A stretch of 64,000 nt of DNA from Thermobifida halotolerans (GTDB taxonomy: Bacteria; Actinomycetota; Actinomycetes; Streptosporangiales; Streptosporangiaceae). Below are positions 12,612-31,768 of this stretch, in pieces. The DNA is taken from NCBI RefSeq assembly GCF_003574835.2, contig NZ_CP063196.1, positions 3,162,001-3,226,000 of the forward strand. The letters run 5' to 3'. A model generated the notes under the pieces. The model did no database searches. It saw nothing but the letters and a program-made list of their open reading frames with translations, and was not told the DNA's origin. Position 1 is the first letter of the stretch, and every line of letters starts with the position of its first letter. The translations under genes and the position numbers were made by a program.

Positions 12612-12677
12612 ACCGTCCGCATTGCGGCGGTGACGGGCGCAAACACCCTTGTGGTCCTGCCGAGTCCGAAAACCCTC

Positions 12678-12683
12678 TAGTCT
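12678..12683 (+). promoter_or_regulatory. -10 element of an apparently leaderless promoter
   Basis: TAGTCT fits the actinobacterial TAnnnT -10 pattern and ends 7 nt before ATG 12691, which has no Shine-Dalgarno sequence. This arrangement suggests transcription starts at the initiation codon. No convincing -35 is seen. Confidence 0.45.
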
Positions 12684-12690
12684 GTCGCCC

Positions 12691-14304
12691 ATGGGTGGAT
12701 CGATCGAGCCAGGCTGGTACGCGGATCCCGAAGGAACTCCGGACCAGCTCCGTTGGTGGAACGGCAGCGAGTGGACGCAGCACGTCCGCACGCTGTCCGA
12801 GTTCACCTCAGATCAGCACGCCGCCGAAGGCTCGGCGGCAACCGAGAACCTGACCGACTCGGGCGACGGGACCGGCCCTGACCAGGCGACCGTCGATCTC
12901 AGCGGCGGCCCCTCCCCCGTCGACGCCACCATGCGCATCGACCCCCCGGCGGCCCCCACCCCCGACCACGACGACGAACCCACCGCCGACCTCTCCCCGC
13001 AGGCTCCCCCGACGGACCACGCCGACCAGGCGACCGTCGATCTCAGCGGCGGCCCCTCCCCCGTCGACGCCACCATGCGCATCGACCCCCCGGCGGCCCC
13101 CACCCCCGACCACGACGACGAACCCACCGCCGACCTCTCCCCGCAGGCTCCCCCGACGGACCACGCCGACCAGGCGACCGTCGATCTCAGCGGCGGCCCC
13201 TCCCCCGTCGACGCCACCATGCGCATCGACCCCCCGGCCGCCCCCACCCCCGACCACGACGACGAACCCACCGCCGACCTCTCCCCGGATGCCCCCGGCT
13301 CCCGCCTCCCCGGTGACGCGGGAGCCGACGACGCTCCGAAGACCGCGGTGTTCACCCCCGACGACGCGCCCCGGACCGCGGTGTTCAACCCCGGCGATCC
13401 GATGTTCACGCAGGCGGCCGAGGGCGGGAGCGCCGAGGAGGACAAGGACGGCGGCAAGTTCAACAAGTTCCTCGGCAACCTCAGGGAGGGAATCCAGGAC
13501 TACCGGGCCGAACTGGCCGAGGAACGGAAGAAGCGCCAGGAGGAGCAGCACCGCAGGGCCGAGAAGGAGGCGGAGGAGCGTCGCAGGCGCGCCGAGGAGG
13601 AGCAGCGGCGCGAGCAGGAGGCCCAGGCCGCCCGCGCGTCCGCTCCGGAGGGCTCCTCCCCCCACCGGCCGGGTGACTCCGGCACCGGAGAGCCCCCCGC
13701 GGACCGCGCACGTCCGGCAACCGCCCCCTCGGGGCCCACCCCTGGCCACGCCCCCTCCGGCCCCAACGCCGGTTATCCGCCGGTCTCCCCTCCCAAGCAG
13801 ACCCCCCACCCCGGCGCCCCCCAGCGGCCGTACCCGTATCCGCCGCAGACAGGACCGCAGCAGGGCTCCGTACCGGCCTACCCGGCGCAGCAGTACCCAC
13901 CCTCCCGTCCGAATCCGGCGTCCCCGCCACACCAGCCGGTGCGCGGGCACGGCGCGGCACCGTCCCCGTCCGGGGGCTACCCCGCGGTTCCCCCCGGCCG
14001 CCCGCCGCAGGGTCAGATGCCCGTGCCGTACAACCGCGGCGGTCAGCCCCCGCGGGGAGTGCCCGGACAGCCCCAGGTTCCCGGACGGCCCCAGTGGGGC
14101 CCCGGTCAGGGCGGAAGCCCGTACCCGACACAGCCTCCCGCCCCCCGGAAGAAGAAGGGCGGCTGCTGCGGCTGCGGCTGCGCCTCCATGCTCATCATCC
14201 TCGTGGTTGTGCTGGTGGCCTTCGGGCTCGGCACCTACCTGTGGCTTGAGGAGAACGGACTGCTGGTCGCGATCTTCGGACACCCGAGCCTCGTGGGCCT
14301 GTGA
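12691..14304 (+). CDS. DUF2510 membrane protein with tandem acidic repeats and Pro-rich region
   Basis: The 537-residue protein starts at ATG 12691 (MGGSIEPGWYADPEG). Residues 1-40 are a DUF2510 domain (PGWYADP, LRWWNGSEWT), common near the N-terminus of actinobacterial membrane proteins. Residues about 64-200 are three 48-residue repeats containing SGGPSPVDATMRIDPP and DHDDEPTADLSP. Residues about 265-310 form a charged coiled coil (EERKKRQEEQHRRAEKEAEE). A long Pro/Gln/Tyr-rich stretch follows (about 325-485). A KKKGGCCGCGC motif then precedes one C-terminal transmembrane helix (IILVVVLVAFGLGTYLWL). The repeats and coiled coil are probably cytoplasmic, making it a membrane-tethered scaffold. 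Function is unknown. Confidence 0.8.
   Translation: MGGSIEPGWYADPEGTPDQLRWWNGSEWTQHVRTLSEFTSDQHAAEGSAATENLTDSGDGTGPDQATVDLSGGPSPVDATMRIDPPAAPTPDHDDEPTADLSPQAPPTDHADQATVDLSGGPSPVDATMRIDPPAAPTPDHDDEPTADLSPQAPPTDHADQATVDLSGGPSPVDATMRIDPPAAPTPDHDDEPTADLSPDAPGSRLPGDAGADDAPKTAVFTPDDAPRTAVFNPGDPMFTQAAEGGSAEEDKDGGKFNKFLGNLREGIQDYRAELAEERKKRQEEQHRRAEKEAEERRRRAEEEQRREQEAQAARASAPEGSSPHRPGDSGTGEPPADRARPATAPSGPTPGHAPSGPNAGYPPVSPPKQTPHPGAPQRPYPYPPQTGPQQGSVPAYPAQQYPPSRPNPASPPHQPVRGHGAAPSPSGGYPAVPPGRPPQGQMPVPYNRGGQPPRGVPGQPQVPGRPQWGPGQGGSPYPTQPPAPRKKKGGCCGCGCASMLIILVVVLVAFGLGTYLWLEENGLLVAIFGHPSLVGL
12880..13287 (+). repeat. Three tandem 144-bp coding repeats
   Basis: Copies begin at 12880, 13024 and 13168 with a constant period of 144 bp (48 codons). 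The first two are essentially identical at the DNA level. The third differs by a synonymous-type change and diverges after 13287. The near-identity of synonymous positions points to recent duplication or ongoing unequal exchange, so copy number probably varies among strains. Confidence 0.95.
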
Positions 14305-16813: not shown

Positions 16814-17599
16814 ATGAACCCCCGTCAACGACGCGGCGTTCTGCTCATGATCGTCGCCGCCCTCGGCGCGGTCCTCGTGTTCTTCACCGTCGTCTCGTAC
16901 GTCAACACGCTCAGCAGCGAACTGGGCACCTACCGGACGGTTCTGCGGCTCACCCAGGATGTCGACCCCTACCAGCCGATCACCGAGGACATGGTCGAGC
17001 CCTACGAGGTCCCCGCCAAGTTCTTCGACGAGGAGGTCTTCCTGACGAACCTGGCCGAGGCCGACGAGTCCCTGACCCAACCGGGCAGTGAGGCGGTCTC
17101 CTCGACCTTCCTGCAGGAGGGCACACTGCTGCAGAAGAGCATGGTCATCCCCGCCCCCGCGCTGGAGAGCGGAGAGCGCGAGATCGCGATCATGATCAAC
17201 GCCGAGACCGGTGTGGCGGGGAAGGTGTCCCGCCAGTCCAGAGTGGACGTCTACGCCACCTTCCAGCCCAACGACCAGTCCAACGCCTGCGCGGTCCGCA
17301 TCCTCACCGACGTGGAGGTGCTCGACGTGGGAGACATCGGGTCGCAGATCGACGCGCAGACCGGCGGCACCAACGCGGTCGTCCCGGTCACCTTCCGGCT
17401 CACCCCCGAACAGGCGCTCCAACTCACCTACGCCGAGGCGTTCGCCTCCAAACTCCGCCTGGCACTGGTCAGCGCGCAGGGCTCGGGCGCCCCGGGCGAC
17501 CTCGACTTCTGCGCCGAGGACCAGTTGGCCGCCATCGGACAGCAGGGCGACGAGGACGGAACGGACAGCGACCCGAGCGGCACCACCGGCGGCAACTGA
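16814..17599 (+). CDS. cpaB: Flp pilus assembly protein CpaB/RcpC
   Basis: This 261-residue protein is anchored by one N-terminal helix (about residues 8-28, GVLLMIVAALGAVLVFFTVVSYV). A SAF-like domain follows (about 45-115: 'DVDPYQPITEDMVEPYEVP', 'STFLQEGTLLQKSMV'), then a CpaB/RcpC domain ('IAIMINAETGVAGKVSRQSRVDVYATF', about 130-230). The tail is Asp/Gly/Ser-rich. In Gram-negative Tad systems CpaB sits near the secretin; here, with no outer membrane, it presumably acts outside the membrane as a periplasm-like scaffold. Start ATG 16814 has GGAGC nearby. It is 40 bp upstream of the TadZ fusion. Confidence 0.88.
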   Translation: MNPRQRRGVLLMIVAALGAVLVFFTVVSYVNTLSSELGTYRTVLRLTQDVDPYQPITEDMVEPYEVPAKFFDEEVFLTNLAEADESLTQPGSEAVSSTFLQEGTLLQKSMVIPAPALESGEREIAIMINAETGVAGKVSRQSRVDVYATFQPNDQSNACAVRILTDVEVLDVGDIGSQIDAQTGGTNAVVPVTFRLTPEQALQLTYAEAFASKLRLALVSAQGSGAPGDLDFCAEDQLAAIGQQGDEDGTDSDPSGTTGGN

Positions 17600-17639: not shown

Positions 17640-19247
17640 ATGAGCACATACCAGGTCCTGATCGGCGTTCCCACCGACGAACTGGAGGACGTCCTCACGG
17701 CCAGGTTCGAGGAGATCCCCGACGCCGGCGTCGTGGGCGTGCACCGCTCGTCCCGGGAACTCGTCGAGAGTGTGGCCGGCATCCCCGGTCTCGACGTGGT
17801 ACTGGTCCACGGGGATCTCGGCCCGATACCGGTGTTCGACCTCATCCGGGACATCTCCCGCAGCCACCCCCAGCTCGCGGTCATCCTGATCGTGGACGAG
17901 GCGGCGCCCGACACCTTCACCAACGCCATGGAGGCGGGCGCGCGCGGCCTCCTCCAGAGCGACGCCACGGTCGACGAGCTCAGAGCCCGGGTCGCCCACG
18001 CGGCCGAGTGGTCACGGACCCTGCGCCGCCATCTGGAGGCCGCCTCCCTGGACCTTCCACTGCCGGGGCGCCGCGGCCAGATCGTCACGCTGACCGGCGC
18101 CAAGGGCGGGGTGGGCACCACCACCACCGCGATCCACCTGGCCAGGGTCGCGGCCAAGGCGGGCCGGATGGTCTGCCTGGTCGACCTCGACCTGCAGTCC
18201 GGCGACATCCCCGGCTACTACGACCTCAAGCACCGCCGCAGCATCGTGGACCTGGTCGAGGCCGCCGACGACATCAGCGCCGCCATGCTCGCCGAGACCC
18301 TCCACGTCCACCACGACGGGCCGCACATCCTGCTGGCTCCCGTGCACGGCGAACACGGCGAGGACGTCACCGCGCGCGCGGCCCGCCAGATCCTGGGGGC
18401 GCTGCGCTCACGCTACGACCTGGTGATCATCGACTGCGGTTCCTCCGTCAACGACGCGACCGCGATGGCGGTGGAACTGTCCGACACCTCGGTGGTACTG
18501 GTCACCCCCGACCTTCCGGCGCTGCGCGGAGCCCAGCGGCTCATCGCGATGTGGGGGCGCCTGCAGATCCGCGACACCAAGAACGTCACGGCCCTGCTGA
18601 CCCGCCACAGCCGGAGGAACGAGATCCAACCCGACTTCGCCCGCAAACTGCTGGGCACCGAGATGCTGCGCACCACCGTCCCCGCCGCCTACCGCGCGCT
18701 GGAGGAGGCGTCCAACACCGGAACCCCCGACCGGCTCACCGACGAGGGACTGCTCAAGGCGTTCGGTCGGCTCGCCGCAGAACTGGGAATGCTCACCCCG
18801 GCCCACGACGGCGGTCCCGCCGCCCCCCTGGGGGAGGCCGCCGAGGGGGTGTCGGCGCGCCGCCTGCGCGGCAGGGGGGATTCCGGCGCCTCGATCGTGG
18901 AGTTCGCCTCACTCGTGCCGTTCCTGGGGCTGGCCCTGTTACTGGCCTGGCAGATCGTCCTTCTCGGAGTGACCGGTCTGTACGCCTCGCACGCGGCCGG
19001 CGAAGGCGCCCGGCAGGCGTCCATCACCCCCGACGACTCCGAGGCGATCCTGGAGGCGGCCACCAAACGGGTGCTTCCCCCCTGGGACGAGGAGGGAACC
19101 TTCCGGCTGGAGCAGGTCGCGGTGGACGGCAACACCTACGTCGAGGTGACGATCGCGATGCCGGCGGTGCTGCCGGGCGTGGACAGCCCCTGGGACATCA
19201 GCAGCCGGTCACTGGTCTTCCCGGAGGGGGGAACCGATGCCGCGTAG
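17640..19247 (+). CDS. TadZ/CpaE ATPase fused to a C-terminal TadE-like pseudopilin
   Basis: This is one continuous 535-codon frame. Residues 1-130 are an atypical receiver-like domain (VLIGVPTDELEDVL, DVVLVHGDLGPIPVFDLI). Residues about 145-385 are a MinD-type ATPase with deviant Walker A GAKGGVGTTTT (about 154-164) and Walker B-like YDLVIIDCGSS. This is the usual end of TadZ, which localises Tad machines. Here the frame continues into RGDSGASIVEFASLVPF (cleavage-type Gly416, Glu421), a hydrophobic helix and a TadE-like periplasmic domain to residue 535. An internal GTG at 18849 (codon 404) has purine-rich sequence upstream and could give a separate TadE. The 3' end overlaps the next tadE-like gene by 11 bp. 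A rare TTA Leu codon lies in the helix. Confidence 0.88.
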   Translation: MSTYQVLIGVPTDELEDVLTARFEEIPDAGVVGVHRSSRELVESVAGIPGLDVVLVHGDLGPIPVFDLIRDISRSHPQLAVILIVDEAAPDTFTNAMEAGARGLLQSDATVDELRARVAHAAEWSRTLRRHLEAASLDLPLPGRRGQIVTLTGAKGGVGTTTTAIHLARVAAKAGRMVCLVDLDLQSGDIPGYYDLKHRRSIVDLVEAADDISAAMLAETLHVHHDGPHILLAPVHGEHGEDVTARAARQILGALRSRYDLVIIDCGSSVNDATAMAVELSDTSVVLVTPDLPALRGAQRLIAMWGRLQIRDTKNVTALLTRHSRRNEIQPDFARKLLGTEMLRTTVPAAYRALEEASNTGTPDRLTDEGLLKAFGRLAAELGMLTPAHDGGPAAPLGEAAEGVSARRLRGRGDSGASIVEFASLVPFLGLALLLAWQIVLLGVTGLYASHAAGEGARQASITPDDSEAILEAATKRVLPPWDEEGTFRLEQVAVDGNTYVEVTIAMPAVLPGVDSPWDISSRSLVFPEGGTDAA

Positions 19248-19623
19248 CCCCTCCCGCTCCGGTCGCCGCAGACCCGGCCGCCGTGACGACCGCGGCTCCC
19301 AGATCCTGGAGTTCGCCGTCTATTTTCCGCTGTTCCTTCTGATGGCGGCGGTCGCGTTCGAGGTGTTCCTCGCGTTCGTCGCCGTGGAGCACGCCGAGAA
19401 CGCCGCCCGCGTCGGTGCCCGCACGGTGCAGCGGGACGGCCCCCTCGGCGCGGTCGGGGTGATCCGGGACGCGCTCCCGGACTGGCTGGACGACGCCCAG
19501 GTCCGCGCGGGGGTCACCGCCGACCGCACCGCCTACGCCGAGGTCGAGATCGCCCTCCCCCTCTTCTTCGAGGTGGCCGACCTCGACTACACCGTGGTCC
19601 GTCGCGTGGACATGGCCGCATGA
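19237..19623 (+). CDS. TadE/TadF-like minor pseudopilin
   Basis: The 128-residue protein has a basic leader (MPRSPSRSGRRRPGRRDDRG) and a prepilin-type site after Gly20 followed by SQILEFAVYF, with Glu at +5. A hydrophobic helix (FPLFLLMAAVAFEVFLAFVAV) follows, then a short extracytoplasmic domain. This fits TadE/TadF minor pilins, which are processed by the prepilin peptidase and needed for Flp assembly. It overlaps the preceding gene by 11 bp, implying coupled translation, and is followed 40 bp later by the ATPase gene. Confidence 0.85.
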   Translation: MPRSPSRSGRRRPGRRDDRGSQILEFAVYFPLFLLMAAVAFEVFLAFVAVEHAENAARVGARTVQRDGPLGAVGVIRDALPDWLDDAQVRAGVTADRTAYAEVEIALPLFFEVADLDYTVVRRVDMAA

Positions 19624-19663: not shown

Positions 19664-21016
19664 ATGGCACTCAAGGACCGTCTCAACGAGGACCGCATCG
19701 CCGACCAGCACGCCGACCGCGGCAGCGTCGCCCACTGGCGCCAGCGTCTGCTGAGTGAGATCAACCTCGACGACCTGGCCATGCTCAGCCTCGAGCAGCG
19801 CCGCATCCGCCTGGAGAAGGTCGTCGGCCACATCCTGTCCCGCGAGGGGCCGGTGCTGTCCGACCGGGAACGCAGCAACATGATCCGCCGGGTCGTGGAC
19901 GAGGCGCTGGGCCTGGGAGTGCTCGAACCGCTGCTGGCCGACGAGAGCGTCACCGAGATCATGGTCAACGGCCCCGACAACATCTTCGTGGAACGCCGCG
20001 GCCGGGTCGAGCGCCTCGAGACCACCTTCGCCAGCGAGGAGCAGCTCTACCAGACCATCGACCGGATCGTCTCCGCGGTGAACCGCCGGGTCGACGAGTC
20101 CAGTCCGATGGTGGACGCCCGGCTGCCCACCGGTGAGCGGGTCAACGTGATCATTCCGCCGCTGTCGCTGTCGGGGCCGGTCATCACGATCCGCCGTTTC
20201 CCCAAACCCTTCACCTTCGAGCAGCTGGTCTCCATGGGCAGCATCGACCAGGCCACCGGGGTGCTGCTGTCCTCGCTGATCCGCGCCCGTCTCAACGTGG
20301 TCGTCTCGGGCGGCACCGGCACCGGCAAGACCACCTTCCTGAACGCGCTGTCGGCGTTCGTGCCCTCCCACGAACGCATCATCACCATCGAGGACTCCGC
20401 CGAACTGCAACTGCAGCAGGAGCACGTACTGCGGTTGGAGTCGCGCCCGCCCAACATCGAGGGCGAGGGCGCCATCACCATCCGCGACCTGGTGCGCAAC
20501 TCGCTGCGCATGCGTCCCGACCGCATCATCGTCGGTGAGGTCCGCGGCCCCGAGACCCTCGACATGCTCCAGGCGATGAACACCGGCCACGACGGCTCCC
20601 TGACCACCGTGCACGCCAACTCCTCCCACGACGCCGTGCACCGTCTGCTGACTCTGGCCTCCATGAGCGAGGTCAAGGTCCCCTTCGAGGCACTACGCGA
20701 CCAGATCAACGCGGCGATCGACGTCATCGTGCACCTGTCCCGGTACCCGGACGGATCCCGCCGGGTGGCCGAGGTGTCGATGGTGGCCTCCACCCGCCAC
20801 GAGGAGTTCCGCCTCGAACCGCTGCTGCGCTTCGAGGCGCACCGCTACGAGACGGGCCGCAGGGTCACCGGCGACTTCCGCCGTTTTCCGCTGCCCCGGA
20901 ACATCGCCTCGCGCCTCCACAGCTCGGGCGAGACGGTTCCGGCGGCGTTCGGCGTCCGGTCCGCGCACTCCGCCCCGTTCCCCAACGGTCTGTCCTCCCC
21001 CGGAGGTTCGCTGTGA
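19664..21016 (+). CDS. cpaF: Tad pilus assembly/secretion ATPase TadA (CpaF)
   Basis: This 450-residue hexameric motor belongs to the GspE/VirB11 superfamily and energises Flp pilus assembly at the inner face of the membrane. The N-terminal domain (about 1-130) is followed by the catalytic core: 'ESVTEIMVNGPDNIFVERRG', Walker A GGTGTGKTT (about 216-224), Asp box 'ITIEDSAELQLQQEH', Walker B RIIVGEVRGPE, and the His box TGHDGSLTTVHAN. The final 40 residues are not conserved. It overlaps the tadB start by 4 bp. Confidence 0.96.
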   Translation: MALKDRLNEDRIADQHADRGSVAHWRQRLLSEINLDDLAMLSLEQRRIRLEKVVGHILSREGPVLSDRERSNMIRRVVDEALGLGVLEPLLADESVTEIMVNGPDNIFVERRGRVERLETTFASEEQLYQTIDRIVSAVNRRVDESSPMVDARLPTGERVNVIIPPLSLSGPVITIRRFPKPFTFEQLVSMGSIDQATGVLLSSLIRARLNVVVSGGTGTGKTTFLNALSAFVPSHERIITIEDSAELQLQQEHVLRLESRPPNIEGEGAITIRDLVRNSLRMRPDRIIVGEVRGPETLDMLQAMNTGHDGSLTTVHANSSHDAVHRLLTLASMSEVKVPFEALRDQINAAIDVIVHLSRYPDGSRRVAEVSMVASTRHEEFRLEPLLRFEAHRYETGRRVTGDFRRFPLPRNIASRLHSSGETVPAAFGVRSAHSAPFPNGLSSPGGSL

Positions 21017-21942
21017 TCTACCCGCTGGTCATCATGCTGGTCACGATCGCCGTCCTGGCCGTGGCCGTGTGGGGCTTCCTCGTCTACATGGACGGCGTGG
21101 CGCAGCGCCGGCTGCTGGCCGCACGCAGCGTGCTGGACGAGGTGGAGCGGCGGGCCAACACCCCGCTGGCGCGTCTGGACGTGTGGCTGCGCCGCACCGG
21201 CCCGGGCCACCAGGTCGAGATCCGGCTGGCCCGCGCGGGAGTCAAGACGAGGGTCGCCACCTTCGTGCTGCTGCTGACGGGCACGGCGGTGGCCGCGGTC
21301 GTCCTGGTCTGGCAGGTCCTCGCCCCGCTGCTGGGCGTGCTCGCGGCCGGTCTGGTGGGTTTCCTGTTCCTGGCCTACCTGCGCCAGCAGGAGGAGAAAC
21401 GCCGTGAGCTGTTCACCGCGCAACTGCCGGAGCTGGCCCGTGTGCTGTCCAACGCCACCCAGGCGGGGCTGGCGCTGCCCACCGCGATCGACATGGCCGC
21501 CGACGAGCTGGACGATCCGGCGGGAACGGAGCTGCGCCGTGTCGCCGAACTGCTCAAGGTCGGCCAGCCCCTGGAGAGCGCCCTCGTCGACCTGCGGGAG
21601 CGGATGCCCTCACGGGAGATCGGGGTGCTGGTGTCCACCCTGCTGGTCTCGTCCCGTTCCGGCGGCGCCCTGGTCACCGCGCTGCGCACCATCTCCGAGA
21701 CGCTGGAGAACCGCAAGGAGAACCGGCGTGAGGTCCACACGATCCTGAGCGAGACCACCAGCACGGCGTGGGCGCTGCTGATCATGGGCATCGGGTCGCT
21801 GTTCCTGCTGAACGCGCTCATGCCGGGGTCGGTGCAGCGGATGACGGAGACCCCCGCCGGACTGGCCGTCCTCGCCGTCTCCCTCTCCCTGTTCGGTGTC
21901 GGGTTCGTGGCGATCCGTCGCCTGGCCCGCATGGACTCCTGA
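21013..21942 (+). CDS. tadB: Tad pilus platform protein TadB
   Basis: The 309-residue polytopic inner-membrane protein has a T2SSF (GspF-like) domain. There is one N-terminal helix (about 2-24), a pair of helices at about 76-122, a cytoplasmic T2SSF segment ('FTAQLPELARVLSNATQAGLALPTAIDMAADEL', 'LLVSSRSGGALVTALRTISETLENR') and two C-terminal helices. It forms the platform with TadC on which the TadA ATPase acts. The start is GTG 21013, overlapping the end of cpaF (GTGA), which implies coupled translation. Confidence 0.93.
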   Translation: MIYPLVIMLVTIAVLAVAVWGFLVYMDGVAQRRLLAARSVLDEVERRANTPLARLDVWLRRTGPGHQVEIRLARAGVKTRVATFVLLLTGTAVAAVVLVWQVLAPLLGVLAAGLVGFLFLAYLRQQEEKRRELFTAQLPELARVLSNATQAGLALPTAIDMAADELDDPAGTELRRVAELLKVGQPLESALVDLRERMPSREIGVLVSTLLVSSRSGGALVTALRTISETLENRKENRREVHTILSETTSTAWALLIMGIGSLFLLNALMPGSVQRMTETPAGLAVLAVSLSLFGVGFVAIRRLARMDS

Positions 21943-21989
21943 GCCCCCGTCCCGCCGCTCGGGCCCACCCCCTCGATCGGAGCTCTCCC

Positions 21990-22892
21990 ATGACCCTTGG
22001 TCTCCCCCTCGCCCTGGTGGCGGGGCTGGTCGGCGCGCTGTCCGTGGCCTGCTTCCTCTGGGGCGCCCACCTGGTGACCCGTCCAACCGCGGTCGCCGAG
22101 GACTTCGTTCCCGCCCTCCCGAAGAAGAAGCGAGAGGGCACGTTCCTCCTGCACCGCATCACCGAACTGCTGGGGCACCCCTTCGGCGCCACCCTGATGG
22201 ACCTGCTGGGCCCCGAGGGCCAGGCCCGGATCCAGAAACGTATCGACGAGGCGGGACGTCCCGGCGGGATCACCGTGCTGCGCTACGTCCGGCGCAAGAC
22301 GGGAGAGGTCCTGCTGTACGGCACGCTCGGGATCCTGTTCCTCCTCAACGACAGCCCCATGATCGCCCTGGTGGTCCTGGCCTTCACCCTGCTCAGCGAC
22401 ATCGTCCTGTACACCGCCAAGCAGCAGCGCATGGACGAGATCCAAAAGCAGCTGCCCGACTTCCTGGACGTCCTGGCGGTGACGGTGAGCGCGGGCCTGT
22501 CCTTCCGGCAGGCCCTGGCCCGGGTGGCCGACGCCATGCCGGGGCTGCTGGCGTCGGAGTTCCGGCTCGCGCTACGCCAGATGGAACTGGGCAGCAGCAG
22601 ACGCGAGGCGTTCGAGACGCTGCGCCGACGCAACCCCAACGAGTCGCTGGGTCGGTTCGTCTCGGCCTTCCAGCAGGCCGAGGACCTCGGGGCGCCGCTG
22701 GCGCAGACCCTGCTGAACATCAGCCTGGACATGCGCCGCGAGGACGCCCAGTACCAGCGCCGCAAGGCGGTGCGTCTCAATCCCCGGGTGACCGTGATCA
22801 CCGCCGCCACGATGCTCCCGGGCCTGCTCCTCCTCATCGGAGGCGGTCTGTTCCTCGGCTCCGGGATCAACCTGGCCGCCTTCTTCGGATGA
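21990..22892 (+). CDS. tadC: Tad pilus platform protein TadC
   Basis: The 300-residue partner of TadB starts at ATG 21990, after GGAGCTCTCCC. The N-terminal helix is 'LALVAGLVGALSVACFLWGAHL'. Two central helices (about 112-150) are followed by a T2SSF domain ('IQKQLPDFLDVLAVTVSAGLSFRQALARVADAM', 'RFVSAFQQAEDLGAPLAQTL') and a C-terminal helix 'TMLPGLLLLIGGGLFLGSG'. It is separated by 47 bp from tadB and by 3 bp from the sensor kinase gene, so all are probably one transcript. Confidence 0.93.
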   Translation: MTLGLPLALVAGLVGALSVACFLWGAHLVTRPTAVAEDFVPALPKKKREGTFLLHRITELLGHPFGATLMDLLGPEGQARIQKRIDEAGRPGGITVLRYVRRKTGEVLLYGTLGILFLLNDSPMIALVVLAFTLLSDIVLYTAKQQRMDEIQKQLPDFLDVLAVTVSAGLSFRQALARVADAMPGLLASEFRLALRQMELGSSRREAFETLRRRNPNESLGRFVSAFQQAEDLGAPLAQTLLNISLDMRREDAQYQRRKAVRLNPRVTVITAATMLPGLLLLIGGGLFLGSGINLAAFFG

Positions 22893-22895
22893 GCC

Positions 22896-24101
22896 GTGGA
22901 CGAGAAGGGGACTCCCGCGCCGGTCCGGTCGACCGGACCGGTTCGGCTGCTCGTCCGGTTGCGCTTCCTGCTCACCGGTATCGCGCTGCTCCTGCTGCCT
23001 CCCGAACGGGTCTCCGTGGGAATCGTCGTGATGCTGACCGGCTACGCGGTGTTCTCCTGGCTGCTGTCCCGCTACTGGGAGCGGCTCTCGCCCCACGCGT
23101 CGCGCTGTCTCCCGCTGATCGTCGCCGACACCTTCGTCGCCTCGGCGATCCTGGGAGTGGGCGGCCCGTCGGGAGCCTTCTTCCTGGCCACGCTGTTCAC
23201 CAGCACCGCCGCGGGGGTGCGGTACGGGGTCAGGGGCGTGGCCGGAGTCTCCACCCTCCAGGTTCTCGGCTACCTGGCGGCGGTGTTCGTGCCCTCGGGC
23301 GGTCCGGTGGAGGCCGGAGCCACGGTCTGGACGGGGGTGCAGGTCGTCGTGGTCCATCCGCTGCTCTACCCGGTCGCCGGGCACATCGGGCTGCGGCTGC
23401 GCGGCCTGTTCGAGGAGTTGACGTCGGAGCAGGAACGGCGGCGTGTCGCGGAGCGTGCGGCGGCGGCGGCCGAGGAGCGCACCCGACTGGCCCGGGACAT
23501 GCACGACTCGGTGGCCAAGACCCTGCGGGGCATCGCCCTGGCCGCCCAGGCCCTGCCGCTCTGGCTGGAACGGGACCCCGAACGTGCGGCGGCCACCGCC
23601 GCGCAGGTGGTGGCCGCCGCCGGGACCGCGGTGCGGGAGATCCGGGAGCTCATCACGGACCTGCGGGAGAGCCCCGCTGGTCCGTCCGTCGCGGACGGCG
23701 TCGCCGCGGTGCTACGCGAGTGGTCCGCCCAGACCGGGGTGGCGGCCGGACTGTGCGTCCGTGGCACTCCGCTGCCGCTGCCGGTCGTCGCCCGGCACGA
23801 GACCGTCGCAGTGCTGCGCGAGGCCCTCACCAACATCGACCGGCACTCCGCGGCGGAGACCGTCACCGTGGAACTCGCCGCCGAGGCGGAACACCTGGTC
23901 ATGACGGTCCGTGACAACGGCCGGGGGTTCGATCCCGTCCTCCCCCTCCCCGGCCGCTACGGCCTGGTGGGCATGCGCGAACGCGCGGCCCGCGCCGGAG
24001 GCTCCCTGACCCTCACCTCGGCCACCGGATCGGGAACCACCGTGACCCTGCGTGTCCCGATGGCGGACACGCCCTCCGAAGACCGCGAGCCGTCCCCGTG
24101 A
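22896..24101 (+). CDS. NarL-family sensor histidine kinase in the Tad operon
   Basis: The 401-residue kinase starts at GTG 22896, only 3 bp after tadC. Residues about 15-165 contain several membrane helices with short loops and no recognised sensor domain. Residues about 190-260 are a HisKA_3 dimerisation domain with phospho-acceptor His203 in ARDMHDSVAKTLRG. Residues about 300-392 form a HATPase (N-box EALTNIDRHSAA, G1 VRDNGRGFD, G2 GLVGMRERAARAGG). It should phosphorylate the LuxR-type regulator encoded immediately downstream. Position inside the pilus operon suggests it senses an envelope or surface cue that controls pilus production. Confidence 0.92.
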   Translation: MDEKGTPAPVRSTGPVRLLVRLRFLLTGIALLLLPPERVSVGIVVMLTGYAVFSWLLSRYWERLSPHASRCLPLIVADTFVASAILGVGGPSGAFFLATLFTSTAAGVRYGVRGVAGVSTLQVLGYLAAVFVPSGGPVEAGATVWTGVQVVVVHPLLYPVAGHIGLRLRGLFEELTSEQERRRVAERAAAAAEERTRLARDMHDSVAKTLRGIALAAQALPLWLERDPERAAATAAQVVAAAGTAVREIRELITDLRESPAGPSVADGVAAVLREWSAQTGVAAGLCVRGTPLPLPVVARHETVAVLREALTNIDRHSAAETVTVELAAEAEHLVMTVRDNGRGFDPVLPLPGRYGLVGMRERAARAGGSLTLTSATGSGTTVTLRVPMADTPSEDREPSP

Positions 24102-24124
24102 TCCCGAAGGAGACTCCTCCCCCC

Positions 24125-24799
24125 ATGTCCCCGATCACCGTTCTCGTCGTGGACGACAACATCGTCGTCCGCGCGGGCCTGCTCGCCCTGCTGGAGACCT
24201 CCGACGACATCCGGATCGCCGGCGAGGCGGGAAACGGCGTCCAGGCCGTGGAGAGGGCCCGGCAGCTCCGCCCCGACATCGTGCTGCTCGACGTCCGCAT
24301 GCCGGTGCGCGACGGAGTCAGCGTGGTCGAGGAACTCGCCGAGCTGGCCAAGGTGGTCATGCTCACCCACACCGAGGATCCGGAGGTCGTTCGGACGGCC
24401 CTGCGCCGGGGAGCCTCCGGCTATCTGGTGCACGGCCACTTCACCCTGGAGGAACTGGGGCACGCCCTGCGGGAGGTGGCGCGCGGCACCGGCAGTCCGC
24501 TCTCGCCCGTGGCAGCGACCGCCCTGGTCACCTCACTCCGCTCCGCCTCGACCGCTCCCGGCCCGGCCGACCCCGCTGCCCTGGGCCTGACCGGCCGGGA
24601 GGCCGAGGTACTCGGGGCGGCGGCGCGCGGCCTGTCCAACGCGGAGACCGCCCGTGAACTGTTCCTTTCGGAGAAAACCGTGAAGAACCACATCAACCGA
24701 ATTTTCCGGAAGCTCGGCGTGGGCACCCGGGCAGCCGCGATAGCCCGGTGGAACGGACACGCGCTCCCCGATCCGAAGCCCTCGTCCGGGCCCACTTGA
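24125..24799 (+). CDS. LuxR/NarL-type response regulator
   Basis: This is a 224-residue regulator. I choose ATG 24125 (MSPITVLVVDDN), as the receiver fold starts there; a GTG at 24098 that overlaps the kinase stop is an alternative. The receiver domain has the acidic pair VVDDN, phospho-acceptor Asp56 in IVLLDVRMP and the switch Thr/Lys regions (MLTHTEDP). The C-terminal HTH is LTGREAEVLGAAARGLSNAETARELFLSEKTVKNHINRIFRKLGV in pattern. It is cognate to the kinase by adjacency and is the last gene before a likely internal promoter for the pilin, a natural target. Confidence 0.93.
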   Translation: MSPITVLVVDDNIVVRAGLLALLETSDDIRIAGEAGNGVQAVERARQLRPDIVLLDVRMPVRDGVSVVEELAELAKVVMLTHTEDPEVVRTALRRGASGYLVHGHFTLEELGHALREVARGTGSPLSPVAATALVTSLRSASTAPGPADPAALGLTGREAEVLGAAARGLSNAETARELFLSEKTVKNHINRIFRKLGVGTRAAAIARWNGHALPDPKPSSGPT

Positions 24800-24908: not shown

Positions 24909-25142
24909 ATGCCGAACCCGATCACCTCCCTCTGCGTCAAAACGCAGACCGCACTCACCGGTCGCCTACACGCTTCGCGTGCCCACCGCGACCGGGGCGC
25001 CGGTTTCGTGGAATACGCGGCCATCATCGTACTGGTGGCCGCGATCGCGGGGGCACTGTTCGCCAGTGGCCTCATCAGCGATATTACGAACGGAATTACA
25101 ACCAAGGTCTACGAGATCTTCAGCCTCACCCAGCAGCCCTAA
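24909..25142 (+). CDS. flp: Flp-type major pilin
   Basis: The 77-residue prepilin starts at ATG 24909 with a strong AGGAGGA site. The leader of 30 residues ends in RDRG. Cleavage after Gly30 gives a mature N-terminus AGFVEYAAII with the Flp hallmark Glu5-Tyr6. The remainder is one hydrophobic helix (IIVLVAAIAGALFASGLISD) and a short polar tail, about 47 residues in total. It is the probable structural subunit of the pilus fibre. The peptidase that would cut it is not encoded in this window. Confidence 0.92.
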   Translation: MPNPITSLCVKTQTALTGRLHASRAHRDRGAGFVEYAAIIVLVAAIAGALFASGLISDITNGITTKVYEIFSLTQQP

Positions 25143-25149
25143 ACTATTA

Positions 25150-25872
25150 ATGACACTGTTCTCAGAAATCCGCAGGAAAATCTCGCCGGGTTCTTCGCCA
25201 TCCGACGACAGCGGACAGGCCAACTTGTTCCTACTCGTCGGTCTGACGCTGGCTCTACTCGCGCTGAGTCTGCTCTTCATACGGTTGGGGGACGCCAACC
25301 AGTTGCGCAGTCAGGCGCAGACCGCTGCGGACGCCGCTGCTCTGGCTGCGGTCACGGTCTCCCGGGACCAGGCCGCCGAGATGCTGGCCGACAACCAGAT
25401 CCCGTATTCCCGGCTCTACGACCCCGCACGGGGCCGCGCCCAAGCGGAGAAGTACGCCCAGCAGAACGGAGCGATCCTGGAGGAAATTCGGGTCAGCGAC
25501 AACAGCATGGGGCAACTCGGCAATTTCGTCCGGGTGGAGGTCCGCGGCGCCAACTGCCGCAAAGAACTCGAGGAGGACCGCAGCCGCGGCTGGTCGGACA
25601 CGGTCTGCGCGGACGCGGATGGAAACGGCGGCTTCGCGCGGATCGGCAACGCCTCGGCCATCGCCCAGATGGTCATGCCCGACTGCCACTACGTCTTCGC
25701 CGAGTCCCAGATCTTCGGGGTCGAATGCGACGGACAACTGGTCCAGAGCGAGCAGCACGCCCGCACCCTCATCAACATCCGCCTGGTATCGGCGGAGGGA
25801 CGCTACCTCTACAAACCTCTTGACGTAGCCGATAATGAAGAAGAGGAGAGTACTCCCACCCCGTCCCCCTAA
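25150..25872 (+). CDS. TadG-like pilus protein (PF13400-type N-terminus)
   Basis: The 240-residue protein starts at ATG 25150, 7 bp after the pilin stop. Residues about 22-70 match the TadG/TadE-like signature: SGQANLFLLVGLTLALLALSLLFIRLGDANQLRSQAQTAADAAALAAV in pattern, i.e. a hydrophobic helix followed by a QTAADAAALA block. The usual Glu+5 is absent (QANLF), as in TadG proteins. The extracytoplasmic part has four Cys (NCRKE, VCADA, DCHYV, VECDG) that may form disulfides. It is likely a membrane-anchored minor component or adhesin of the Flp pilus. The final residues already fall in sequence of reduced GC. Confidence 0.82.
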   Translation: MTLFSEIRRKISPGSSPSDDSGQANLFLLVGLTLALLALSLLFIRLGDANQLRSQAQTAADAAALAAVTVSRDQAAEMLADNQIPYSRLYDPARGRAQAEKYAQQNGAILEEIRVSDNSMGQLGNFVRVEVRGANCRKELEEDRSRGWSDTVCADADGNGGFARIGNASAIAQMVMPDCHYVFAESQIFGVECDGQLVQSEQHARTLINIRLVSAEGRYLYKPLDVADNEEEESTPTPSP

Positions 25873-26004
25873 GATTGCACCTATTCATCCAGATACCCTC
25901 TCATCGCCGGAACCTTGTTATCAAGTCTTTTCTCCTGTCCCTAGTCGAATCCAGTTCCGTTGGCTAGGCTGATGAGTTGTCTGTTCTCGATTGGAAGGCT
26001 GTCC

Positions 26005-27066
26005 GTGGACCGACTGAGACCCAAGTCTGGTTTTCCCTATATTCTTCGACTGCTTCTACCGGTCATGTTGGGCACGGCACTGCTATCTTCCTGCGTCTCT
26101 GTTCCGGACGGTTCAGAGCCTTCTGTCACCACTACAGGCAGCACTGGGAACGACGAAGCCAGCGGTTCCTTCAACACCGAGGAGACCGAATCCTCCATTT
26201 CCTCTTCTATTTCGAGCGCAACCCCCGAAGGAGACCGTCTCAAATTCGACATCTTCTCCCTGGAGCGCCACTCAGCAGACCTTCTTGTATTGAAAATGCG
26301 GATTACCAACACAGGACAGGAAACCGCACATGTCTTTCGGACTCTCGCAGACCCTGAAGGAGAAATGGCAACTCCTGACGGTGTCTCCCTAGTCGATATG
26401 CAAAACAATAAGCGATACATGCCGTTCACCTTGACTGACGGAGAAACCTGCCACTGCTCCAACTGGAGAGGTCAAGAAAAACTCGCCCCTGGTGGAAATA
26501 TTGACATCTGGGCAGCCTTCCCTTCCCCGCCTGAGTCCGTTGAACTCGTAGCAGTGACTACCCCAGCCACCCCTGACTTTCTTGATATACCAATTACCGA
26601 GGCGACCTCGCCCGATTCGGCTATTGTGGACACACCGACATCCGAACCTCGGGTCTTGGATCTGCGGGCATTCCAAGATGACATGGACGGAAATAGTTCT
26701 CGTACCGAGTCAGCTGAGGAGACCAGCATCATGCTCTCCTCTGATGTGCTTTTTGGCTTAAATGAGGCGACTCTCACCGAGGCAGCTGAGGAGGCGCTTC
26801 GGAACGTAGCCGAGGAGATCAATTCCTCCTCCGGCACCACAATTCAAGTTAACGGCTACACCGACGACACCGGCAGCGACTCAATCAATAACCCGCTCTC
26901 CCAGAAGCGCGCCGAGGCTGTGGCATCTAGGCTCGAAGAACTTGTCACCCGGGATGGAATTACATTCGAAGTATCCGGGCACGGATCCGCTGACCCGGTG
27001 GGCGACAACTCAACCGAAGAGGGCCGAGCAAAGAACCGTCGCGTTACCGTTACCTTCACCAAATAA
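26005..27066 (+). CDS. Lipoprotein with CxC domain and C-terminal OmpA domain
   Basis: I place the start at GTG 26005, 6 nt after GGAAGG; TTG 25960 and ATG 25972 are in frame but give an odd extension. The product is 353 residues with lipobox LLSSC (Cys30). Residues about 70-205 are a beta-type domain containing DGETCHCSNWRG and a PESVEL strand; the same features recur in the next gene. Residues about 245-353 are an OmpA/MotB-like peptidoglycan-binding domain (SSDVLFGLNEATLTEAAEEAL, GYTDDTGSDSINNPLSQKRAEAV, GRAKNRRV). An OmpA domain on a Gram-positive lipoprotein would tether a surface component to the wall, fitting a pilus base. GC content is far below neighbours and TTA codons occur, suggesting transfer. 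Confidence 0.85.
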   Translation: MDRLRPKSGFPYILRLLLPVMLGTALLSSCVSVPDGSEPSVTTTGSTGNDEASGSFNTEETESSISSSISSATPEGDRLKFDIFSLERHSADLLVLKMRITNTGQETAHVFRTLADPEGEMATPDGVSLVDMQNNKRYMPFTLTDGETCHCSNWRGQEKLAPGGNIDIWAAFPSPPESVELVAVTTPATPDFLDIPITEATSPDSAIVDTPTSEPRVLDLRAFQDDMDGNSSRTESAEETSIMLSSDVLFGLNEATLTEAAEEALRNVAEEINSSSGTTIQVNGYTDDTGSDSINNPLSQKRAEAVASRLEELVTRDGITFEVSGHGSADPVGDNSTEEGRAKNRRVTVTFTK

Positions 27067-27079
27067 AAGGGATCCAGAT

Positions 27080-27637
27080 ATGTGGAAGCCTCGGCCATTT
27101 ACCACGTTTTTCCTCATTGCAAGTTCACTTGCCGCCCTACTAACTTCACCAACCGCACACGCACAGGACACCAAAAATGAAGAATTAACTACCCCCCCTT
27201 CGGAATCCCTACCCTCCATAGGCTCCACCACAGCCAGCAATACCACATGGAAAGGTGCGTACATAGAGATCAATGAACTTAAACGTTCATCCACGGGGCG
27301 ATATACATCATTAACATGGACACTACACAATGAGACCAGCAGCAATATATCCCTTAGCTACTTTGACAATAAGGTATATCTATACCCTTCAGGAAAATCT
27401 GGAGACGGAGTGGTATTAATTGACGAGAGTCACGGCCTAAGATTTAATACCTACATCGACGGAGAAAACGACTGTCTCTGCGCCGGAGTCGACGCTTCGC
27501 CTGGGGCATTTCAATTGATAACTGAACCCGGCTCCCACACCACCTACTGGGCCTCCTACCAGCTTTCCGAGGACACCGAGGAAGTGACGATCGAGATCCC
27601 CGGTTTCCTGCCGATCAAGGACGTTCCCGTCAGTTGA
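27080..27637 (+). CDS. Secreted CxC-domain protein related to the upstream lipoprotein
   Basis: The 185-residue protein starts at ATG 27080 with AAGGGA upstream, 13 bp after the lipoprotein gene. A signal peptide (MWKPRPFTTFFLIASSLAALLTSPTAHA) is followed by a beta-type domain with 'TSLTWTLHNETSSNISLSYFD', 'DGENDCLCAGVDASPG' and 'EEVTIEIPGFLPI'. The CxC element and the closing strand parallel residues about 140-205 of the preceding lipoprotein, so the two are probably paralogous domains. At least three TTA codons are present and the GC content is low until about 27540, where the sequence becomes GC-rich. No known enzyme motif. Probably a surface or pilus-associated protein. Confidence 0.8.
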   Translation: MWKPRPFTTFFLIASSLAALLTSPTAHAQDTKNEELTTPPSESLPSIGSTTASNTTWKGAYIEINELKRSSTGRYTSLTWTLHNETSSNISLSYFDNKVYLYPSGKSGDGVVLIDESHGLRFNTYIDGENDCLCAGVDASPGAFQLITEPGSHTTYWASYQLSEDTEEVTIEIPGFLPIKDVPVS

Positions 27638-27667: not shown

Positions 27668-28339
27668 ATGGCGAGATCACGTGCCCGCTCCCCCCGTCGT
27701 TCGAAGGGCGACCGCGGGACTTCCGTACTGGAGACCTCGGTCGTGACGATCCTCGCCGCGGGGATCGTCATCGCTGTGGTCCAGTCCCCGGTCGGGGACT
27801 ACTTCCACGACAGTGTCCGCGAGATGGTGTGCGTGGTCGACGGCCCCGAATGCGGGGGTGAGACCTGGACCGAGGTCGAACGGCCGGAGCCTCCCGAGGA
27901 GTACCGGTTCAACCTCACCGGACTGGAGTGGACGGGCGAGGTCACCGGTACCGGGAAGGCGGTGGCCGCCATCGAGTGGGCACTGCAGCACGCCAGTATG
28001 AACACCCCCTACGTGTGGGGAGCCAACGGGCCGAACGCCTTCGACTGCTCCAGCTTTGTCCAGTGGGCGTGGCGGCAGGCGGGGGTGTCCCTGCCCCGTG
28101 TCACCTACCAGCAGCAGCCCGCCCTGCCCGCTGTGCCGAGCATCGACCAACTCCAACCCGGCGACCTGGTCTTCTTCAACACCAACGCCCCCGGCCCGCC
28201 GCCCACCCACGTGGGCATGTACATCGGCGACGGCAGTTTCGTGCACGCGGCCAACTCTCGGCGCGGCGTCGTGGTCGACTCGCTGTCCGGCTACTATCTC
28301 AGCGCCTACGCGGGCGCCGGACGCCCGCCGCAGGAATAG
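27668..28339 (+). CDS. NlpC/P60 peptidase with a prepilin-like N-terminus
   Basis: This is a 223-residue protein. The N-terminus MARSRARSPRRSKGDRG ends at Gly17 and is followed by TSVLETSVVTILAAGIVIAVV, i.e. a basic leader, a G-xxxx-E cleavage-type site (Glu at +5) and a hydrophobic helix, just as in TadE/Flp-type prepilins. Residues about 95-223 are an NlpC/P60 domain with catalytic Cys in FDCSSFVQWAWRQAG, His in PTHVGMYIGDG and His in SFVHAANSRRG. It would cut peptidoglycan stems or cross-bridges where the pilus traverses the wall, or be displayed on the fibre. ATG 27668 has GAGGAG upstream. It is 30 bp after the secreted CxC gene, in the same run. Confidence 0.9.
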   Translation: MARSRARSPRRSKGDRGTSVLETSVVTILAAGIVIAVVQSPVGDYFHDSVREMVCVVDGPECGGETWTEVERPEPPEEYRFNLTGLEWTGEVTGTGKAVAAIEWALQHASMNTPYVWGANGPNAFDCSSFVQWAWRQAGVSLPRVTYQQQPALPAVPSIDQLQPGDLVFFNTNAPGPPPTHVGMYIGDGSFVHAANSRRGVVVDSLSGYYLSAYAGAGRPPQE

Positions 28340-28420
28340 CCGCCCGGTGCGCCGCAGCCTCCATTTCCGCCGTGCCCCGTGCCTCCCTCCCTCCGCACCG
28401 CCGACCCGGACCCCGTGCCC

Positions 28421-29215
28421 ATGCCCTCTCGCTCCCTGCTTCTGGTGGCCGCCCTGGTACTCACGGCCACGTCCTGCGTCTCCACCGACGGCGGCGCCAC
28501 CCCCGACTCCGCGGCCCAGGCCGCCTCCGACAGCCACACCCCCGATCCGCGGGCCGACGCCCAGCGGGTCGCGGAGCGGTGCCCCGGGTGCGCGGACGAG
28601 GTCCAGGTGATCACGGGACTGGTCCACGAGGGGGAACCGGCGCGGCTGGTCCTCACCGAGGCCGAGATGGCGGCGAACTCCCTGACCGGAGCGGACCGCA
28701 TGGCCGCGGTCTTCCTGGTCCGCAACAGCGACGACCGGGTGCTCGCCGACAACCTGGACCTGGCCGCCACCGGCTTCGTGCCGCTGCCGGACGGCGACCC
28801 CGACACCACCACGGCGTTCGACCGTGGCAACGGCAACTTCGTCCTGCTCACCCAGGACCAGGGGCAGCCCGAACGGCAGCTCCTCGCCTGGCTCAACCAG
28901 GACGACCTGGCCACGGTCCGCACCTTCACCCAGCGGGGCGTGGCCACCACGGGACAGTCCGGGATCGAGACGGTCGACACGGACCGCGACGGCAGTCACG
29001 AACTCGTGAGCTACCTCGGCGACGAGACGCCGGAGTGGGCCGACCGGGACGTGCGGTTCCTCCACCGGTTCCACCCCGAGAGCCTGGACTACCTGCCGTG
29101 GCGGTGCGCCGAGAGCGACGACGGCGGAGTTTCCTACCCCGACCCGGTGACCATGTACGAGGCGCCCTGCTACGAGTTCGGCAACGGCCCCCTGCCCTGG
29201 CACGAGGGCGAGTAG
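28421..29215 (+). CDS. Lipoprotein of unknown function
   Basis: This is a 264-residue protein. The start is taken as ATG 28421, giving a compact signal peptide ending in lipobox TATSC (Cys19); GTG 28415 is an alternative. The mature part has several Cys (RCPGC, WRCAES, APCYEFG) and repeated Asp-rich turns (DTDRDGSHELV), reminiscent of calcium-binding or beta-propeller/FG-GAP-like surface proteins, but I cannot assign a family. It lies in the Tad run between the NlpC/P60 gene and the second MinD-like ATPase. No ribosome-binding site is obvious, so it may depend on coupled translation. Confidence 0.75.
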   Translation: MPSRSLLLVAALVLTATSCVSTDGGATPDSAAQAASDSHTPDPRADAQRVAERCPGCADEVQVITGLVHEGEPARLVLTEAEMAANSLTGADRMAAVFLVRNSDDRVLADNLDLAATGFVPLPDGDPDTTTAFDRGNGNFVLLTQDQGQPERQLLAWLNQDDLATVRTFTQRGVATTGQSGIETVDTDRDGSHELVSYLGDETPEWADRDVRFLHRFHPESLDYLPWRCAESDDGGVSYPDPVTMYEAPCYEFGNGPLPWHEGE

Positions 29216-30442: not shown

Positions 30443-31768
30443 ATGCGTTGTTGGCACCGGAACGACAGCGGAGGCGGTCTCGTCGAGTACGCCGCCCTCG
30501 TCCTTCTCGTCTGCGCCGTCGCGGCGGCCGCCGTCCTGCTCGCCCTGCCCCGCTCCGTCGCCGACGGCATCGCGCGCGCCGTGTGCCTGGCGCTGCGACT
30601 CGACGACTGCGGCCCGTCCCCCGCCGAGGTCGCCGACGCCGCCTACGAGCCCGAGCGCTGTCTGCAGACCCGCGTGACGGACGTGTCGGGCTACCAGGTC
30701 GAGGTGGCTGTCACGTTCGGCGGGGAGTTCTCGTTCGTCACCGAGTCCTTCTCCGACGGCCGGACCCACGTGACCCTCGTGGACACCGCCAGGCTGGAGG
30801 CCTCCCTCGGGGCGGGCGCGGGCCTCAACGCCACCAAGGCGTTCCGGCTCGGGGCTGAGGTCGGAGTCGGCGGCGGCCTGAGCTTTCCCAACGGCAGCAC
30901 CTGGGTCTTCGCCGGTCCCGAGGAGGCCGAGCGGCTCATGGCCGACCTGCGGCTGCGGCAGCGCATCGACATCGCCGCGAGCGTCAATCCGCTCGTCGGC
31001 CGGGGGATCGACCTGGTCTGGGGGCCCGAGGTCCCCGCCCCGCACATCACCCGGACCGGGGTGGAGACCGAGGTGGGCGTCCAGGCGAACGCCGGACTCT
31101 CTGTCGGCGACGAACGCGGCGGACAGCGGGAGGGCGGGGTCGAGGAGTGGTCGGTCAGCCCCGCGCTGCAGGCGGAGGGCGCGGTCGGGGTGACGGCGGT
31201 GCTCAGCGAGTCCGTCGACTCGCGTGACGGCGGCGTGGCCACCACGTACTCGCTGGGCGGGACCGCGAGCATCGGCGCGGACTGGGTCGTCGGCGCCTGG
31301 AGGCCGGGCGGGGAGCGCACCGGGACGATGACCGTCACGCGCGACGCCGACGGCCGGGTCACCGGTGTGCGCCTCACCCAGGTCGCCGCGTCCGACTCGG
31401 GGACCACGGTGACCACCACCGAACTGGCGGTGGAGACCGCCGAGGAGCGCGCGACGGCGGAGGACTGGCTCGGTCTGGTCGCCGACGACCAGGTGCTCCC
31501 GCTGACGTGGGACTCGATGGCGCCCACCGGGCTGGGTGAGGATCCGGGTCCGTTCGAGCGGTGGGTCTTCGAGAGGGGACGCACCTCACGGGTGCACTAC
31601 TCCGGCAGCGACAACGTCCACGAACTGGGGGGCAACATCAGGCTCGGGGTGGGGCTGGGGCTGGGCGGTACCTGGGGGGACGAGTCGCTGACGGTGACCG
31701 ACGCCGAGTATCTGGGCGCGCCGGTGGGTGGCATCCGCCCCTACGTCCCCTACGAGACCTGTGCCTGA
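30443..31768 (+). CDS. Large protein with Flp-pilin-like N-terminus
   Basis: The 441-residue protein starts at ATG 30443, probably from a leaderless transcript. Residues 1-10 (MRCWHRNDSG) end in a Gly followed by GGLVEYAALVLLV, the exact Flp pattern with Glu5-Tyr6 after the cut. A hydrophobic helix runs to about residue 35, then CLALRLDDCGP. The remaining ~385 residues are a secreted, Gly/Val/Thr-rich, probably beta-stranded domain with repeated 'GVxAxAGLSVG', 'GGTASIGADWVVG' and 'IRLGVGLGLGGTWGD' segments. I recognise no catalytic motif. It could be a tip adhesin or a pilus-exported toxin-like protein; these are guesses from architecture. The membrane protein gene 11 bp downstream may be its partner. 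Confidence 0.8.
   Translation: MRCWHRNDSGGGLVEYAALVLLVCAVAAAAVLLALPRSVADGIARAVCLALRLDDCGPSPAEVADAAYEPERCLQTRVTDVSGYQVEVAVTFGGEFSFVTESFSDGRTHVTLVDTARLEASLGAGAGLNATKAFRLGAEVGVGGGLSFPNGSTWVFAGPEEAERLMADLRLRQRIDIAASVNPLVGRGIDLVWGPEVPAPHITRTGVETEVGVQANAGLSVGDERGGQREGGVEEWSVSPALQAEGAVGVTAVLSESVDSRDGGVATTYSLGGTASIGADWVVGAWRPGGERTGTMTVTRDADGRVTGVRLTQVAASDSGTTVTTTELAVETAEERATAEDWLGLVADDQVLPLTWDSMAPTGLGEDPGPFERWVFERGRTSRVHYSGSDNVHELGGNIRLGVGLGLGGTWGDESLTVTDAEYLGAPVGGIRPYVPYETCA

Follow-up and report, generated by a model that had tools for sequence, protein, structure and literature searches.

A Tad-type prepilin module carrying exchangeable peptidoglycan hydrolase domains in Thermobifida halotolerans and related bacteria

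The gene at 27668-28339 (+) of the window, the 64,000-nucleotide stretch of Thermobifida halotolerans DNA analysed here, encodes a protein in which a Flp-like prepilin N-module is joined to an NlpC/P60 cell-wall peptidase domain, and across genera of the family this one conserved carrier is found with different enzymes. We refer to the product as PilX, a name coined in the present analysis. A sequence-only reading of this DNA had presented the NlpC/P60 fusion itself as the finding; the fusion is real, but it is one case of a wider pattern in which the carrier is kept and the enzyme swapped, with at least three, and probably four, unrelated kinds of hydrolase on the same Tad pilins across the family. 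The best explanation, and in our judgement a fairly likely one, is that these minor pilins make local cuts in the peptidoglycan, allowing the Tad pilus through the thick wall of its own cell.

A prepilin-type N-terminus on a wall peptidase

The following parts of PilX were identified, with the basis for each in brackets.

27668-28339, plus strand: PilX, 223 residues, Flp-like prepilin N-module and NlpC/P60 domain (ORF, Pfam, N-module alignment)
27668-27718, plus strand: basic leader peptide, residues 1-17, ending in Gly17, with a predicted prepilin peptidase site after Gly17 (sequence, N-module alignment)
27719-27790, plus strand: hydrophobic pilin-type helix, residues 18-41, with Glu22 at +5 (N-module alignment, motif test)
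27830-27853, plus strand: Cys55-x6-Cys62 segment (CVVDGPEC) between helix and linker (N-module alignment)
27998-28324, plus strand: NlpC/P60 domain, residues about 111-219 (Pfam, alignment, AlphaFold2, Foldseek)
28046-28048, plus strand: Cys127 (NlpC/P60 catalytic motif)
28208-28210, plus strand: His181 (NlpC/P60 catalytic motif)
28244-28246, plus strand: His193, in FVHA (NlpC/P60 catalytic motif)

A Shine-Dalgarno sequence, AGGAG, ends 7 nt before the PilX ATG, and the N-terminus reads MARSRARSPRRSKGDRG followed by TSVLETSVVTILAAGIVIAVVQ, with Gly at position 17 and Glu22 at +5. PilX therein has what defines a class-III signal, namely a basic leader ending in Gly or Ala, an acidic residue at +5 and a hydrophobic helix. 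A strict prepilin motif (Gly or Ala, four uncharged residues, Asp or Glu, then 16 uncharged residues) was found in five of the 17 locus proteins, these being PilX, the TadE part of TadZ/E, TadE2, Flp and BigPil at 30443, and the four carriers other than PilX all have recognised or pilin-like segments. When PilX residues 1-60 were shuffled, the motif arose by chance in 0.06% of cases, and when the helix region alone was shuffled, in 0.8%. Conservation is stronger evidence than these shuffles that the aligned N-termini represent a real prepilin N-terminus: among 27 PilX family members, 24-69% identical to PilX, Glu at +5 is invariant and Gly at -1 nearly so, with the exceptions having a Gly or Ala one residue on, in register, and both Cys55 and Cys62 are invariant in the family. 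No lipobox or AxA site was seen after the hydrophobic stretch when PilX residues 30-60 (IAVVQSPVGDYFHDSVREMVC) were read by eye. The basic leader, Gly17, TSVLE with its Glu at +5 and the hydrophobic helix had been picked out from the letters of the window, and both the ORF and the conservation across the 27 members agree with that description. The same reading presented the class-III signal as an alternative to Sec, which was wrong, as cleavage and sorting signal differ but entry is shared; prepilins too use Sec/SRP for membrane entry (PMC3244431).

The second half of PilX was likewise described correctly as a complete NlpC/P60 domain with Cys-His-His. Pfam NLPC_P60 (PF00877) matches PilX residues 113-213 at E 1.3e-26 (93 bits against a cut-off of 23), Cys127 and His181 are invariant among 21 aligned NlpC domains, and His193 is present in PilX. 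AlphaFold2 modelled PilX with high confidence from about residue 91 onward, mostly at pLDDT 90-97, and the best Foldseek match of the model was the C. difficile autolysin domain 7cfl (E 2e-12, TM to target 0.90). Taken on its profile match, catalytic Cys-His-His and modelled papain-like fold, PilX would be an NlpC/P60 (C40) enzyme, with predicted peptidase activity. Over residues 1-55 the pLDDT was below 50 and the N-terminal half gives no structural reading, because the rows added to the alignment were NlpC domains only.

Homology to Tad pilins and association with a Tad locus

A profile of the N-module, built from 27 PilX-type sequences and applied to whole genomes from the order and the class, ranked PilX first (E 1e-18 to 1e-36), and the next matches were Flp pilins encoded in cis, for example one of 84 aa at 9.4e-9 and one of 105 aa at 5.4e-8. 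The window's own Flp was recovered at E 1.5e-5 (G000:C1:3186972-3187103), and the profile also returned TadE and large Flp-like (BigPil-type) N-termini. Since the profile recovers the Flp of the same loci, we read the match as homology rather than chance, and judged by these profile searches the PilX N-module is homologous to Tad pilins. A chance resemblance of the PilX N-terminus to a pilin is ruled out by this recovery together with the conservation. As a single sequence, PilX matched neither Pfam Flp_Fap nor TadE, and no match to N_methyl (PF07963) was obtained up to E 1; one relative from genus g46 gave a weak PF07963 match below the cut-off (E 0.09). A TadE-like N-terminus, which had been proposed as half of a search model, does not describe PilX, as PF07811 gave no match and the N-module is closer to Flp. 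PilX is not TadE itself, which is a separate gene at 19237-19623, and it is not TadG-like either, since PF13400 gave no match and TadG is a separate gene at 25150-25872. When GTDB contigs were searched with full-length PilX, nothing but ordinary NlpC/P60 domains came back, as it is this domain that holds the conserved patterns, and the N-terminal half was used instead.

The Tad locus in the window, in which PilX comes last, consists of the following genes, again with the basis in brackets.

16814-17599, plus strand: CpaB/RcpC-like protein, at the head of the conserved Tad row (sequence, gene order, conservation)
17640-19247, plus strand: CpaE/TadZ-like ATPase in frame with a TadE-like pseudopilin (Pfam, strict motif test)
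19237-19623, plus strand: TadE-like minor pilin (PF07811)
19664-21016, plus strand: TadA/CpaF assembly ATPase (sequence, position, conserved order, tree)
21013-22892, plus strand: TadB and TadC platform proteins, TadC start put near 21990 (sequence, position, conserved order)
22896-24799, plus strand: sensor kinase and response regulator inside the locus (sequence, conserved order)
24909-25142, plus strand: Flp major pilin (match to PilX N-module profile)
25150-25872, plus strand: TadG-like minor pilin, here without an enzyme domain (PF13400)
25960-27066, plus strand: lipoprotein with OmpA-type domain, possibly a peptidoglycan anchor, start putative (PF00691, conserved order)
27080-27637, plus strand: secreted protein conserved between OmpA and PilX, start predicted (conserved order)

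In the protein at 17640-19247 the prepilin motif lies at residue 416, and the same arrangement was found by the strict test in 18 loci including the window; this is a fusion whose leader is 415 residues long, or else translation of the pseudopilin starts at an internal GTG. The sensor kinase and response regulator were not found in the Tad loci of genus g31. Just before PilX, across the genes for the OmpA lipoprotein and the small secreted protein (window 25500-27500), the G+C content drops from about 70-75% to 52-56%, and directly after PilX there is a lipoprotein-like gene (28379-29215) that is found only beside some NlpC-type PilX genes. Upstream of the Tad row, at 12649-14304 of the window, there is a proline-rich protein in which a unit of about 46 residues (DQATVDLSGGPSPVDATMRIDPPAAPTPDHDDEPTADLSP...) occurs three times in frame, almost unchanged. 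A single A24 prepilin peptidase gene is present in the genome (E 2.1e-9, L098 4957-5775), unlinked to the Tad locus and 2.5 Mb away from it; in Bifidobacterium breve the prepilin peptidase gene is likewise at a different locus from Tad (PMC6916266).

Searching with the N-terminal 108 residues of PilX found relatives in 63 of 251 family genomes, in 25 genera, with 53 at E<1e-9. The gene order CpaB-TadZ/E-TadE-TadA-TadB-TadC-(HK-RR)-Flp-TadG-OmpA-Lp-PilX, with PilX last, was seen in at least 25 of about 40 loci, and the OmpA-Lp-PilX block is common to the remaining loci, one orphan excepted; genus g46 retains the block, but apart from the assembly genes. Of the 251 family genomes, the 53 that have PilX (E<1e-9) are precisely those that have CpaB of this type (E<1e-60). 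The cut-offs were chosen with the data in view and the genomes are relatives of one another, which means that a Fisher value cannot be taken as a fair probability, but the two sets of genomes match completely. Outside the GTDB family, the specific PilX module had no strong-score match in the sample of the class, and the dozen or so TadG proteins read there had no enzyme domain. Many Tad loci in the class have a TadG without enzyme and no PilX, showing that the enzyme is not universally required for Tad pili. Two irregular cases were noted within the family. In one genome (G065; L156, L234) PilX-NlpC is isolated, at a great distance from the Tad locus, and its N-terminus looks damaged, while the TadG of this genome carries SLT; in a g46 genome, L240 (G175:C1:664157-664750) has TadG-M15 and no PilX or CpaB match, and is perhaps a decaying or divergent locus.

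That the peptidase is sorted by the Tad machine, as had been suggested from the sequence, is well supported on comparative grounds, by Flp homology, gene order, co-occurrence with CpaB and the repeated grafting of hydrolases described below, and PilX is very probably a Tad-handled prepilin. Beyond this, we infer that it would be cleaved by the prepilin peptidase and incorporated into the fibre, with a location that may be tip, shaft or base. Wall enzymes commonly have N-terminal anchors, and it could be argued that PilX has an uncleaved membrane anchor that resembles a pilin and holds an enzyme for general wall maintenance. We consider this very unlikely, as the Flp homology is significant and includes the invariant Glu at +5, the gene is linked to and co-occurs with Tad, and the same enzyme types have been grafted independently onto TadG. 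Furthermore, PilX is the only one of 12 NlpC/P60 proteins in the genome with an N-terminal prepilin motif, the other 11 being without such an N-terminus.

Exchange of enzymes on a conserved carrier

The sequence-only reading proposed looking for the same fusion in other Tad loci, where it was indeed found: of 57 distinct PilX C-terminal parts, seven of which came without a label and were classified by eye, 19 are NlpC/P60, 36 are SLT/lysozyme-type and two are M23. The M23 heads (Peptidase_M23, E 2e-27) are tandem partners of the NlpC form in two loci (L134 and L138). The SLT identity of the most numerous heads rests on profiles, namely SLT (PF01464, 7e-5), NF052397 (E 1.6e-26) and the PHROG phage transglycosylase phrog_12661 (E 1.7e-27), and a PDB search with the SLT form of PilX gave no match.

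TadG varies along with PilX. It is bare in loci with NlpC-PilX, and in SLT-PilX loci it carries a domain with the motif HPxGRACDYM...NHxDHIH, which is named by no Pfam or NCBIfam model; we label it 'M15-like' on the strength of the motif, a PDB match (9flh, E 3e-10) and matches to PHROG tape-measure and endolysin profiles. Distant loci without PilX have a TadG with NlpC/P60 (L216-L220; PF00877 at E 5.9e-20 in L217) or with the M15-like domain (L215), and the TadG of G065 has an SLT domain (NF052397 E 2.7e-36, phage transglycosylase 1.3e-39). An assignment of the TadG tails in L144 and L154 to NlpC proved false, these tails being M15-like. The same domain types are present in phage tail and tape-measure proteins, as seen with PHROG profiles. 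On the TadA tree the enzyme states need seven changes, where the minimum for seven states is six, indicating that the exchanges were few and inherited. In about 40 loci both PilX and TadG were readable, and each of these has at least one hydrolase domain with an intact catalytic motif.

Genus g46 departs from the rest in that none of its 24 PilX-SLT sequences retains the catalytic Glu (replaced by T, V, I, M or another residue; for example L141, L143, L144, L154, L155 and L159), meaning that PilX cannot be the cutting enzyme in g46 and may bind instead. The Glu is kept in 12 of 12 PilX-SLT sequences from other genera, and all 12 of the g46 TadG proteins read have the M15-like domain with its metal-site motif. 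This loss would fit a role in which the domains mainly bind peptidoglycan to anchor or align the machine, catalysis being secondary or lost, as would the OmpA-type domain, a common peptidoglycan anchor, that is encoded two genes upstream of PilX. Such a role is quite unlikely to be the main one, however, given that Cys and His are intact in the NlpC forms, that the other genera hold on to the SLT Glu, and that even in g46 the metal-site motif is retained on TadG.

Opening of the wall and relation to known systems

Under local wall opening, the explanation we favour, the Flp-like N-module would insert PilX in the membrane as a prepilin, the single A24 prepilin peptidase of the genome would cut it after Gly17, and TadA/B/C would handle the product. 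The NlpC/P60 head would then be outside the membrane at the pilus machine, where, by cleaving peptide stems close by in the peptidoglycan of its own cell, it could clear a way through the thick wall for the growing pilus. Related bacteria would use M23 or SLT on the PilX-type pilin to the same end, or M15-like, NlpC/P60 or SLT domains on TadG. We can tentatively suggest a more specific arrangement, possible though somewhat doubtful, where PilX and/or enzyme-bearing TadG sits at the first-built pilus tip and cuts the cell's own peptidoglycan ahead as TadA pushes; if true, this would be a self-contained wall-boring pilus made from interchangeable pilin-enzyme fusions. TadG-like proteins have been proposed at Tad pilus tips in other bacteria (PMC12075869 and, for CpaL, PMC13170226), which makes a tip-borne cutter plausible for TadG and possible for PilX.

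The best rival is that the pilin-borne hydrolases are a weapon, displayed on the pilus and cutting the walls of neighbours in antagonism or predation. Weapons typically exchange their enzyme types, polymorphic-toxin domains are found in the same genomes on related Flp-type N-modules, and variable-domain Tad tips mediate prey killing in Myxococcus Kil/Tad (PMC12075869). We nonetheless find a weapon unlikely, because the PilX and TadG positions carry only peptidoglycan hydrolases, with wall-cutting chemistry kept at every change, and because, unlike fast-changing effectors, these genes are passed on stably across genera and match the Tad core one to one. There is also no conserved immunity-type gene after PilX, the gene at 28379-29215 being limited to some NlpC-type loci.

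The long proteins with a Flp-like N-module and Cys-x6/8-Cys are a separate observation. They were found at L216:15734-17248, in L230 (974-aa ORF), L232 (785-aa ORF), L228, L229 and L226, and at 30443-31768 of the window, with up to 16 such matches in one genome (G074). The L216 protein, encoded inside a Tad locus, has PT-HINT and CdiA_C domains; other heads are PT-HINT with a deaminase-like HAEQN and Tox-REase-5 (E 3e-20), and in L233 the N-module is joined to a GDSL lipase. The toxin-bearing forms are possibly an undescribed delivery route, and the accessible portion of a 2012 survey of polymorphic toxin trafficking makes no mention of pilin (PMC3482391).

Local opening of the wall by a pilus-associated enzyme has partial parallels in several known systems. 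In S. sanguinis the hydrolase LytF promotes extrusion of the type IV (Com) pilus through a monoderm wall, but LytF is a free, separate hydrolase whose association with the pilus is only speculated (PMC13192262), whereas PilX has the build of a pilin. Assembly of the Tad pilus in Caulobacter depends on PleA, a homologue of lytic transglycosylases (Viollier and Shapiro 2003, as cited in PMC5182063). Unlike PilX, PleA is a separate protein in a diderm. It is not known to be a pilin fusion. Phage tail and tape-measure muralytic domains (PHROGs 329, 4197, 9228 and 12661) use the same toolkit of NlpC/P60, SLT and M15-like domains in a device that passes walls, but they act from outside on a target cell and have no pilin module.

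The modular type IV pilins, such as PilB and PilC of S. sanguinis (Raynaud 2021, PMC8179133), are similar to PilX in having a functional domain on a small pilin module and one shared carrier for many heads. They have a T4a-type N_methyl motif (IPR012902) and are mostly adhesive, with S74 and M26 the only peptidase heads named, whereas the PilX carrier is of the Flp/TadG type (Tad) and its heads are peptidoglycan hydrolases. Measured by sequence against the definition in that study, PilX has the grafted non-pilin domain and lacks the N_methyl motif. TadG/CpaL and the Kil tips are, like PilX, Tad minor pilins with an extra C-terminal domain (vWA in CpaL) and proposed at the tip, and no wall-cutting heads are described for them in the accessible portions of PMC12075869 and PMC13170226. 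Searches of an open-access collection found no description of peptidoglycan hydrolases fused to Tad pilins, which is weak evidence of novelty with most subscription journals and preprints outside its scope.

Pilus passage through the wall has been listed as an open question (PMC6916266), and the PilX locus gives a concrete, testable answer on how monoderm pili cross peptidoglycan. The enzyme exchanges, a natural series, point to wall cutting as what is selected, not any one enzyme. The locus also takes modular pilins beyond adhesion into enzymology, and into the Tad branch.
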